Positions 3,384 to 6,705 of a DNA stretch of 39,749 nucleotides are shown one piece after another. The first letter of the stretch is position 1; each line of letters begins with the position of its first letter. Below the pieces are notes generated by a model that was not told where the DNA came from, made no database searches, and worked only from the letters and a program-made list of their open reading frames with translations. The stretch is from Clostridiales bacterium (GTDB lineage: Bacteria > Bacillota > Clostridia > Caldicoprobacterales > DTU083): positions 1 to 39,749 of the forward strand of contig DUOA01000088.1 in the NCBI GenBank assembly GCA_012839095.1, given 5' to 3'. The translations under genes and the position numbers were made by a program.

Positions 3384-3436
3384 AAAAGCGCTGCAAATGG
3401 ATACTGTTCATCTGCGGGCTTGCGGCAGATGATTAC

Positions 3437-3466
3437 CCCTGCAAAACCATGCAGGGTGATTTTTTG
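3437..3466 (+). terminator. intrinsic terminator after the carboxypeptidase
   Basis: CCCTGCA (3437-3443) pairs with TGCAGGG (3450-3456) around a 6-nt loop, followed by TGATTTTTT. A second hairpin (CATCTGC/GCAGATG, about 3410-3432) lies just upstream. Confidence 0.75.
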
Positions 3467-3477
3467 GAAACATAATA

Positions 3478-3507
3478 TTGTACAGCCATATAATAATTGG
3501 GTATAAT
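3478..3507 (+). promoter_or_regulatory. mgtE: candidate promoter of mgtE
   Basis: TATAAT at 3502-3507 with a poorer TTGTAC (3478-3483) 18 bp upstream. Initiation near 3514 would give a leader of about 150 nt, ample for a cis-acting RNA. Confidence 0.5.
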
Positions 3508-3611
3508 TAGAGTAGTTTACAAGATTTTAATGAAAGGGTGAAGGGTGGTGATGGTTTTGGACTCCGGTCCTGTGCCTGGACAAAGTAGTAATAATACAAT
3601 TCAATACAGTA

Positions 3612-3660
3612 AAGGAGCCCGGACTGTCACTTCGTGCAGCAGGTGCTCCTTATAAGGAGG
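3612..3660 (+). promoter_or_regulatory. mgtE leader with competing Shine-Dalgarno decoy and sequesterer
   Basis: AAGGAGC (3612-3618) can pair perfectly with GCTCCTT (3645-3651), closing a hairpin that contains CTG/CAG and CAC/GTG helices (3624-3639). The same CTCCTT strand can instead pair with the true Shine-Dalgarno AAGGAG (3654-3659) immediately 3'. The two pairings exclude each other, so the first leaves the ribosome site free and the second hides it. The upstream part (3555-3580) contains GGAC and GTCC blocks that can pair in several ways. I do not see the conserved core of the Mg2+ M-box here, so the identity of the element is open. Confidence 0.45.
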
Positions 3661-3667
3661 GCTTGAC

Positions 3668-5011
3668 ATGAACGACATGATCTCTTTCGTTGAAACATGC
3701 ATCCAGGAGGGAAAGTTTTCAAGGATACGAGAGGAAATCATTGAGCTTAACGTTGTCGATATTGCACAGCTTCTGGATGAATTGGAGGAGGAAAAAACCC
3801 TTATTGTATTCCGCTTGCTGCCAAAGGAGATCTCCGTTGAAGTGTTCTCCTATATGTCCACCGAGCAGCAGCAATACATCATTGAGTCCATTACGGACAA
3901 GGAAATCCAGAATATAATCAGCAACATGTTTATGGATGACACGGTGGATATCCTGGAGGAAATGCCGGCTAATGTAGTAAAGAAAATTCTCAGAAATGTC
4001 AGTGAGGACAGAAGAAAGCTTATTAACCAGTTTCTGAGATACCCGGACTACTCGGCCGGCAGCCTGATGACAATTGAATATGTGGATCTGAAAAAGGAAA
4101 TGACGGTGGAGCAGGCCATACAGCGTATCAGAAGTATCGGCCTGGACAAGGAAACCATTAATATCTGCTATGTGATGGATCAAAACAGGAAGCTGGAAGG
4201 GGTAATTCCCATTCGGCAGCTGCTGCTGAATGACGGCTCTACAAGAATAGGAGATATTATGGAGACCAACTTCATCTCCATAGATACCCATACGGATCAG
4301 GAAGAGATTTCCAACCTGTTCAGAAAGTATGATCTGCTTGCCATGCCGGTGGTGGATCACGAAAACAGGCTGGTGGGCATCATAACAATTGACGATATCG
4401 TTGATATTATTGAGCAGGAAAACACAGAGGACTTTCAGGTGATGGCAGCCATTCAGCCCTCTGAAGAAGAATATCTGAAAACCAGGGTTACCAGACTGGC
4501 TAAAAACAGAATTGTCTGGCTGCTGATTCTGATGATTTCAGCAACCTTTACGGGAACCATTATTAAACATTACGAGGAAGTGCTGTCCTCAGTCGTTGTT
4601 CTGGCGGCTTTTATACCTATGCTGATGGACTCTGCAGGAAATGCAGGTTCCCAGTCTGCAACCATGATCATCCGCGGTCTGGCATTGGAAGAGATTCATA
4701 TACGGAATATCGGAATGGTGATTTGGAAGGAGCTCAGGGTTGGTCTGATGGTGGGCATTATCCTTTCAGCGGTTAACTTTTTAAGGGTGTATTGGTTTGA
4801 GAAAACGGATATTGCAGTTGCCATAACAATCAGTATCAGCTTGTTTCTGACTATTGTACTGGCTAAGGTTGTGGGCAGTTCACTGCCTATCCTGGCGAAG
4901 AAAATTAAACTGGATCCGGCTATCATGGCTGCTCCCATGATTACAACCATTGTTGACGCCTTGTCATTGCTTGCCTATTTCAGAATAGCCACATGGCTTA
5001 TTTTTAAGTAA
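3668..5011 (+). CDS. mgtE: magnesium transporter MgtE
   Basis: 447 aa, the usual MgtE length, with ATG 3668 behind AAGGAGG. Domain order is canonical. The superhelical MgtE-N domain covers about residues 15-125 (DIAQLLDELEEEKTLIVFRLLPKE, ILEEMPANVVKKIL). A CBS pair follows to about 255 (YVMDQNRKLEGVIPIRQLLL; AMPVVDHENRLVGIITIDDIVDII). The C-terminal half carries about five membrane helices with the family signatures MDSAGNAGSQSATMIIRGLAL and KLDPAIMAAPMITTIVDALSLL. In this family Mg2+ bound between the N and CBS domains closes the pore, giving feedback on uptake. The gene stands alone between a terminator and a methyltransferase gene, and its leader looks regulated. Confidence 0.97.
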   Translation: MNDMISFVETCIQEGKFSRIREEIIELNVVDIAQLLDELEEEKTLIVFRLLPKEISVEVFSYMSTEQQQYIIESITDKEIQNIISNMFMDDTVDILEEMPANVVKKILRNVSEDRRKLINQFLRYPDYSAGSLMTIEYVDLKKEMTVEQAIQRIRSIGLDKETINICYVMDQNRKLEGVIPIRQLLLNDGSTRIGDIMETNFISIDTHTDQEEISNLFRKYDLLAMPVVDHENRLVGIITIDDIVDIIEQENTEDFQVMAAIQPSEEEYLKTRVTRLAKNRIVWLLILMISATFTGTIIKHYEEVLSSVVVLAAFIPMLMDSAGNAGSQSATMIIRGLALEEIHIRNIGMVIWKELRVGLMVGIILSAVNFLRVYWFEKTDIAVAITISISLFLTIVLAKVVGSSLPILAKKIKLDPAIMAAPMITTIVDALSLLAYFRIATWLIFK

Positions 5012-5049: not shown

Positions 5050-6705
5050 GTGGTAATGGTGAGAGATATCAGTGCTGAGCATCCATCCGGGAAACTTGAG
5101 GGTTCCGGAACCTCCGCAAGTTCAGAGGCCTCCGCAGGTTCGGGGGCCTTATTTTCCAGGATTCCCCTGATAAATAAAATACGGGCGAGTCAGAAAGAAA
5201 TGCGGTATGGGCTGATATGGGAGGATAAAACGGAGGAATTCGAGCTGCTTACAGCTGAGAAGCTGCCTGTACTTAAGCATATACCGGAGTATGACATTGT
5301 ATCTTCAGATGATTCTGAAGACAGCGAGGACCGGTGCAACATCCTGATCGAAGGGGATAATTATCACGCGCTGGTATGCCTTAATCAAACTTATCCAAAT
5401 CAAATTGATCTTATTTATATTGATCCGCCGTACAATACCGGCAGTCGGGACTTTATATACAAAGACCGGTATGTCGAAAAGGAAGATGAATACAGCCACT
5501 CCAGGTGGCTTTCCTTTATGTATAAGCGGCTGATGGCCTGCCGGGAGCTGCTTAAGTCCGACGGCGTTATCTTCATATCAATTAACGAAGAGGAACTCTC
5601 CCAGCTGAAACTCCTGTGTGACGAGGTATTCGGACCGGAGAATTACATGACCATGTTTACTGTTAAGGTCAGGCATGAAGAGCGCATACTGAAGATGGAT
5701 AAGGATTTTCACGAAGTTGTGGAATATCTGCTGATGTATCGCAAAAGCGATCAGCACAAGACAGTAAAGAGAAAACGGGACAACACATCCAACGATTTAT
5801 ATGTATATGAAATAGAGGAGCTGGCTGCCCCATCCGTAACCATGAAATGCGGTGACAAAACCGTCCAGGTATTCAGGCCGGGTGAATACAGAATCATAAG
5901 GAGGCAGCCGGATGTGCGGCTGTTTAAGAAAATCTGCATAAGAGGAAGCATTAAAGAGGGGAACTCCAGCGGAAGGTTTTACATGCAATACCTTTCAGCC
6001 CTCCAGGAAGAAAAAAGGGGCTGTCTTATCAAGGTGCCTGATATCGGAAATGACAGTCATGGATACAGATATTTTCTGATGCCTTCATCCTCCTCCAAGG
6101 TTAACGGGGATTATTTTCAGGGGGTTCCGCTGAACAGAAAGGAAACAATAGAGCTGCCCTATCCCAATTACCTGGACTTCGTCCGGGAGTTCAATACAGC
6201 CGGCTATGAAGGAGGGGTTGATTTCCGCGGTAAAAAGCCGGTTTCCTTCCTGCTGAAGGTATTTGAACTGGGTGGCATGAACGAGAAAAAAGACGGAGTC
6301 GTGCTGGATTTCTTTGCCGGATCCGGTTCCACCGGTGAGGCTGTTTTGGAACTTAATAAGGCGGACGGCGGCAAGAGGCGGTTTATTCTTTGTACCAACA
6401 ATGAAAGCAATATCTGCTATGACATTACACTGCCAAGGCTGAAAAATGTCATTCAGGGATATCCGGCCAGGGTGACTCAGGATACAATTCTGCTGGACAG
6501 GCAGCTGACTTATTCCGACCTTGCCAAAATGGACCGGATATTAGCCATAATATCCAGCATAGAGGAAGAAAACCGATGCCGCTATGAAACTGTATTGAAA
6601 ACAGTGGCAGATAACAGGATAAGGGTAATTGGCAGATGCATAAAGAGCAGAAAGGAAGGATTGGGCGGCAGCCTGAAGTTCTATAAAACTGCCTTCACCG
6701 AGTAA
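5050..6705 (+). CDS. solitary adenine-specific DNA methyltransferase, type III Mod-like (beta class)
   Basis: 551 aa from GTG 5050; ATG 5056 is an equally good start behind AAAGGTGG. The catalytic motif IV DPPY lies at 125-128 (LIYIDPPYNTG) and the AdoMet-binding motif I at 422-429 (DFFAGSGSTGEA). The order IV, target-recognition region, I marks the beta class shared with type III Mod subunits. The N-terminal ~80 residues carry a Ser/Gly/Ala-rich stretch, and the C-terminus contains the family block LCTNNESNICYDITLPRL. No Res helicase-nuclease or other restriction gene adjoins, so it appears to be an orphan, possibly epigenetic, methylase. The product would be N6-methyladenine, or less likely N4-methylcytosine; the target cannot be predicted. 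A strong terminator follows. Confidence 0.9.
   Translation: MVMVRDISAEHPSGKLEGSGTSASSEASAGSGALFSRIPLINKIRASQKEMRYGLIWEDKTEEFELLTAEKLPVLKHIPEYDIVSSDDSEDSEDRCNILIEGDNYHALVCLNQTYPNQIDLIYIDPPYNTGSRDFIYKDRYVEKEDEYSHSRWLSFMYKRLMACRELLKSDGVIFISINEEELSQLKLLCDEVFGPENYMTMFTVKVRHEERILKMDKDFHEVVEYLLMYRKSDQHKTVKRKRDNTSNDLYVYEIEELAAPSVTMKCGDKTVQVFRPGEYRIIRRQPDVRLFKKICIRGSIKEGNSSGRFYMQYLSALQEEKRGCLIKVPDIGNDSHGYRYFLMPSSSSKVNGDYFQGVPLNRKETIELPYPNYLDFVREFNTAGYEGGVDFRGKKPVSFLLKVFELGGMNEKKDGVVLDFFAGSGSTGEAVLELNKADGGKRRFILCTNNESNICYDITLPRLKNVIQGYPARVTQDTILLDRQLTYSDLAKMDRILAIISSIEEENRCRYETVLKTVADNRIRVIGRCIKSRKEGLGGSLKFYKTAFTE

Follow-up and report, generated by a model that had tools for sequence, protein, structure and literature searches.

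A short leader open reading frame and competing RNA arms upstream of mgtE: a probable translational attenuator in Clostridia

Results

The window, that is, the whole stretch of DNA analysed here (39,749 nt of contig DUOA01000088.1 from a Clostridiales bacterium), carries on its forward strand a gene for a 447-aa protein at 3668..5011, whose ATG start codon at 3668 was read directly from the sequence. Pfam matches to MgtE (1.1e-37), MgtE_N (4e-29) and CBS (1.2e-16) identify it as the Mg2+ transporter gene mgtE, as an earlier note on this sequence had named it, and it is the gene that the leader described below would regulate. A consensus scan located a sigma-70-like promoter on the same strand at 3479..3507 (TGTACA, 17 nt, TATAAT; 10/12 matches), from which the mgtE transcript may possibly start; the scan gave three sites in the region against 1.2 expected. 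Two successive hairpins were seen at 3403-3465, between a vanY-like gene and this promoter (CATCTGC..GCAGATG, then CCCTGC..GCAGGG with TGATTTTTT after it); the second of them resembles a terminator for vanY. On the same strand, 38 nt 3′ of mgtE, begins a DNA methylase gene (N6_N4_Mtase, 5050-6705).

In front of mgtE lies a short open reading frame (ORF) that the earlier note had missed (3557..3655, + strand; 32 codons from a TTG start, MDSGPVPGQSSNNTIQYSKGARTVTSCSRCSL). Its TAA stop codon (3653-3655) overlaps the mgtE Shine-Dalgarno (SD) sequence, 12 nt 5′ of the ATG, and its peptide has D2, P5 and P7, with a single acidic residue near its N-terminus. When 61 genomes were searched at the nucleotide level for 3480-3800, seven relatives gave a match in front of mgtE; three of these matches were strong (71-75% identity) and the other four weak. 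All seven have a short ORF, starting with TTG, CTG, ATG or GTG, with an GGTGGTGAT-like SD 5′ of the start and a peptide of the form M-D-S/Y/P..P-V/L-P, the M-D-x(2-3)-P-x-P start being common to the window and these relatives. Leaders L009 and L020 carry an in-frame three-base insertion, giving MDYPDPLP, and D2 is accompanied by D4 or D5 in the leaders MDYDPLP, MDSDPLP and MDYPDPLP. The pattern GGTG-N(4,9)-TGGAY-N6-CCNNNNCC, which combines the SD and the peptide motif, occurs once in the window's genome, at the leader; its reversed control gave two matches. Judged from its sequence, the leader ORF is probably translated.

The leader can be divided into four arms, all on the + strand. Arm 1 (3545..3565) comprises the leader-ORF SD (the GGTGGTGAT region), the TTG start and codons 2-3; arm 2 (3613..3634) contains most of a decoy, AAGGAGC (3612-3618); arm 3 (3640..3652) is an anti-SD with GCTCCTT at 3645-3651; and arm 4 (3654..3660) is the mgtE SD, AAGGAGG. 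Direct reading placed the decoy, CTCCTT (3646-3651) and the mgtE SD (3654-3660) precisely where the earlier note had put them, and its observation that the decoy and the SD vie for GCTCCTT is exact. Arm 2 can form a duplex with arm 1 or a hairpin with arm 3 on the same bases (13 of 18 are reused), and arm 3 can pair with arm 2 or arm 4. The 1:2 pairing, a third interaction absent from the earlier note, has a z of -3.07 (2/300 shuffles as good). The segment from arm 2 to arm 3 folds at -17.5 kcal/mol (z -3.03 versus dinucleotide shuffles, 2/200 as good), the mgtE SD region and the 40 nt before it pair at z -2.44 (10/300 as good), and the fold of the whole leader, taken by itself, is only moderately more stable than those of its shuffles (z -1.85; 10/200).

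In the predicted ribosome-free fold of an RNA ending at 3661, the 1:2 pairing takes up 0.84 of arm 1 and the SD pairs with arm 3 at 0.68. Blocking arm 1 in this RNA changed the pairing of arm 3 with the SD from 0.68 to 0.0 and that with arm 2 from 0.02 to 0.98. In longer RNAs, SD:arm 3 pairing prevailed at equilibrium (0.61-0.66), standing at 0.66 in the RNA ending at 3707 even with arm 1 blocked. Because the SD stays paired with arm 3 at full-length equilibrium, switching would need to be under kinetic control; ensemble folding, too weak at full length, was rejected as sole proof of a switch.

The same arrangement of arms is found in 32 mgtE leaders resembling that of the window (type A), which were chosen partly by peptide motif; a further chosen leader, L166, was left out because its ORF (MDSSPVPEWAG...) extends past the start of mgtE. 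The energy of the 1:2 duplex was below the shuffle mean in all 32 (mean z -3.9), and in 20 of them none of 300 shuffles gave better complementarity. The leaders' own arms pair at -21.6 kcal/mol, compared with -17.2 ± 0.54 kcal/mol when arm 1 is exchanged between leaders, a mean cost of 4.4 kcal/mol (0/2000 permutations as good as observed). The earlier note held that absence of covariation in relatives would speak against a switch, and strong covariation was found. Among 26 distinct ungapped composites (five bulged leaders and one duplicate left out), 92% of the 1:2 cells are standard pairs, both sides change in 7 of the 13 pairs (28 such cells), and the covariation score was reached by none of 500 shuffles and by no slid register (23-58% of cells paired), in an alignment whose anchoring on complementarity is a bias in its favour.

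The 2:3 hairpin has z<-2 in 25 type-A leaders, beats the 3:4 hairpin in stability in 31 and reuses arm-2 bases in all 32. Mutually exclusive 1:2, 2:3 and 3:4 pairings, with the ribosome-binding site (RBS) in arm 4 and the leader ORF on arm 1, were found, support for 3:4 itself, in which the SD pairs with sequence before it, being weak in relatives (mean z -0.93). When arm 1 was blocked in silico, SD accessibility rose in 15 or 16 of the 32 leaders and fell in 4 to 6 (p 0.005 to 0.045, depending on the RNA end), an effect of the right sign and of modest size. Codon 2 has A as its middle base in all 32 leaders, yet this base is paired in only eight. Among 36 additional leaders whose arm sequences differ, 25 again show downstream pairing of the start region at z<=-2. 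The mgtE upstream regions L176-L182 (family f2) carry a second leader type with the ORF MDAGPSNLPKS..., in which the leader start is one partner of arm 2 (CTGCCTC...GTTTTCC). Inspection by eye gives an alternative partner about 100 nt 5′ of mgtE, a conserved GGAAAACACGGGGCAG, with another conserved stretch, GAGCCATACATTA, in between.

The frequency of such leaders was assessed on mgtE genes sampled by protein search, which avoids selection by motif. An order sample (30 genomes, 26 with an mgtE hit) and a class sample (157 genomes, 89 with a hit) together gave 118 mgtE upstream regions, that of the window included and L189, whose N-terminus is missing, left out. An SD-led short ORF beginning M-[DE]-x(1-6)-P (the fixed rule) was present in 50 of the 118 and in 8 of 28 mgtE upstream regions from other classes of the phylum. 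Of 76 regions upstream of other genes in the fetched loci, two had one (Fisher p 4e-11 for 50/118 versus 2/76). With any D/E at codon 2, the corresponding counts were 73/118, 14/28 and 5/76. Peptides found include MDSSPLP, MDPGPLP, MDAGPSNLPKS, MDAYPGRS-like, MEVPLPQR and MDADPGSSS, and MSPDPDSKPKG is an example beyond the reach of the rule. The remaining 68 regions lack a fixed-rule ORF; some of them have acidic starts without proline and others no visible leader ORF. The fixed-rule ORFs in L225 (-354) and L283 (-339) were rejected as artefacts lying inside M-boxes, both loci having a second ORF that fits. One relative's mgtE match (L165, G010:C4:26327-27661) has a single in-frame TGA.

A pattern search of 391 genomes matched in 16, in 10 upstream of mgtE and in 6 elsewhere, and its reversed control matched in 4. 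A pattern scan of genome contigs returned at least 117 stretches; among the matches listed, 16 are mgtE leaders (L062, L075, L087, L088, L090, L091, L095, L104, L116, L123, L128, L132, L134, L147, L153 and L156), and the other listed stretches were set aside, being without an mgtE match and, where they hold short ORFs, looking like chance. The scan is too loose and therefore yields no frequency.

The earlier note had failed to find an M-box core, and the Rfam search agrees: no family, the M-box (ykoK, RF00380) included, reached its gathering score anywhere in the 39.7-kb window, and no riboswitch appeared between 3200 and 3900 at E<=10. The match to a known riboswitch class that the note proposed to look for with Rfam models was thus not obtained. 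In relatives the RF00380 model scores 70-157 bits, and 18 of the 32 type-A leaders have an M-box ahead of the leader ORF. For the 118 upstream regions, M-boxes were called within 600 nt by a nucleotide profile built from the Rfam hits. On a curated list (the fixed rule plus ORFs accepted by eye, in regions of which some contain Ns or are cut by contig ends), a leader ORF was present in 53, 17 with an M-box and 36 without; nine had an M-box only and 56 neither. Where both occur in one locus, the M-box is always upstream. Geosporobacter subterraneus DSM 17957 (L088, 188-3352) has an M-box, leader ORF, mgtE, second leader ORF and second mgtE in tandem. The second leader sits in the gap between the two mgtE genes without an M-box, an arrangement consistent with translational control. 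T-box leaders and TPP riboswitches were also seen near mgtE loci (L123, L134; L176, L178, L179).

Discussion

Taken together, these data suggest that mgtE is probably controlled by a leader-ORF-dependent translational attenuator. The leader ORF, its arms, their predicted mutual exclusion and their wide occurrence are borne out by sequence and covariation, and the attenuator architecture is well supported; a dependence on Mg2+, ribosome drop-off and the direction of control are what we infer from them. In the scheme that we propose, arm 1 of a ribosome-free leader would pair with arm 2, leaving arm 3 free to take the mgtE SD (arm 4), and mgtE would be off. A ribosome at the leader start would cover arm 1, so that the 2:3 decoy pairing could form and free the mgtE SD, and ribosomes running through the whole leader ORF would break 2:3 and turn mgtE off again. 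By analogy with MgtL and MgtQ, ribosomes at low Mg2+ may pause or fall off after the first residues, M-D-x(2-3)-P-x-P; a leader started yet unfinished would then be the sole state keeping mgtE on. This on-state would be set during transcription, 2:3 forming before the rest is made, and would afterwards be maintained by 2:3 or by ribosomes on mgtE.

The earlier note had seen in the leader the logic of a translational riboswitch. The decoy, anti-SD and SD logic of that reading stands, while a ligand-binding riboswitch is not supported, no aptamer-like conserved domain having been found. Conservation instead concerns a short leader ORF, with a further arm formed by its SD and start codon. An undescribed riboswitch class, in which Mg2+ or a metabolite stabilises 1:2 and hides the SD and the short ORF is incidental, would suit the competing helices and the metal-transporter gene, and a separate mgtE motif has been published as a riboswitch candidate in Thioalkalivibrio (PMC11109978). 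We nevertheless regard such a class as quite improbable, given that the window has no Rfam match, that no conserved unpaired core is seen apart from the coding start, that conservation tracks the reading frame (the 3-nt insertion of L009 and L020 is in frame) and that leaders whose arm sequences are unrelated also have an acidic codon 2.

Also unlikely is a leader that responds to prolyl-tRNA supply, EF-P activity or elongation stress in general, and not directly to Mg2+, with a stall at P5/P7 keeping arm 1 covered. Proline stands at codon 5 in 21/24 and at codon 7 in 21/24 of the type-A leaders from the protein-search samples, which are motif-selected, and in Salmonella the proline codons of MgtL act through EF-P (PMC6460261). 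Since type-A leaders were chosen partly by peptide motif, however, their proline and acidic codon counts are not independent evidence, and outside type A the peptides MDADSSRLC, MDVGDYSRL and METDGSS are acidic without early prolines. The acidic residue is the commoner feature, because several non-type-A leaders keep it in this way. Plain translational coupling, in which the terminating leader ribosome re-initiates at mgtE and nothing is sensed, would account for the overlap of the window's leader stop with the mgtE SD, 12 nt before the ATG. It is nonetheless very unlikely, as the position of the stop varies between -37 and +50, counted from the mgtE start, among the 32 type-A leaders and coupling would make the arm competition needless.

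The probable attenuator belongs to a known kind, the leader-peptide attenuator, and Mg2+ sensing through the stability of the translating ribosome is known from the enterobacterial MgtL and MgtQ. A literature search that covered few subscription papers and preprints found no leader peptide on mgtE described in Bacillota. As far as this literature shows, four features are new: the use of such a leader for mgtE in Clostridia, a 1:2 helix built from the start site, the widespread acid/proline leader ORF and the stacking of this ORF behind M-boxes. Related leaders precede mgtE in many Clostridia and seem to form a distinct magnesium gauge that combines RNA and peptide. More tentatively, with somewhat less than an even chance in our estimate, Bacillota may own a widespread Mg2+-sensing leader-peptide class, independent of MgtL, in which acid/proline chains destabilise the ribosome at low Mg2+, a start-site-built attenuator is wired to mgtE and an M-box is often stacked in front to give two-tier control. 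If this is true across Clostridia and other Bacillota, with an unrelated RNA and a different transporter, it would be a general way of gauging Mg2+; it would also make the co-occurrence of M-box and leader peptide at some loci testable and account for mgtE genes that have a structured leader without an M-box, the window's included.

Several known systems resemble this leader. The M-box (ykoK, RF00380) is Mg2+-related and lies upstream of many such mgtE leaders, being a separate element that is absent from the window. The M-box of Mycobacterium tuberculosis pe20 shares the SD-decoy logic (SD1/anti-SD/SD2), the SD of an upstream ORF acting as the anti-anti-SD; it is driven by the M-box aptamer, whereas the decoy here lies inside the leader ORF and an aptamer was not found (PMC12810186). 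The mgtE motif SRC-65-1 is also upstream of mgtE and includes the SD, but is reported only in Thioalkalivibrio, and is compared here by its description (PMC11109978). The EPDP start of MgtL, the leader of mgtA in E. coli and Salmonella, causes ribosomes to drop off when Mg2+ is low (PMC11282234). Our leader likewise has an acidic/proline N-terminus (D-x(2-3)-P-x-P), too short for a homology test, and precedes a gene for an Mg2+ importer, with alternative RNA folds that would be set by ribosome progress; MgtL works by Rho-dependent transcription termination, whereas the predicted target here is the mgtE SD (PMC11282234, PMC6460261). MgtL has two acidic residues near its start (Glu2, Asp4), as does MgtQ (Asp2, Glu5), whereas the window's peptide has one (D2). 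MgtQ, an 8-aa leader ORF between mgtC and mgtB of Salmonella, follows a scheme backed by tested mutants, in which 1:2 together with 3:4 hides the RBS and 2:3 frees it, and its Asp2 and Glu5 raise mgtB by this arm logic (PMC8092293). It shares with our leader an Mg2+ transporter gene, a short ORF over region 1, the arm scheme, an acidic codon 2 and the translational level, and the second leader of L088, between two mgtE genes, recalls its position. MgtQ is gammaproteobacterial, with mgtB as its target, whereas the ORFs here are about 26-52 aa long and precede mgtE in Clostridia. A further difference is their long 1:2 helix, which incorporates the SD and start of the leader itself, and they often follow an M-box.
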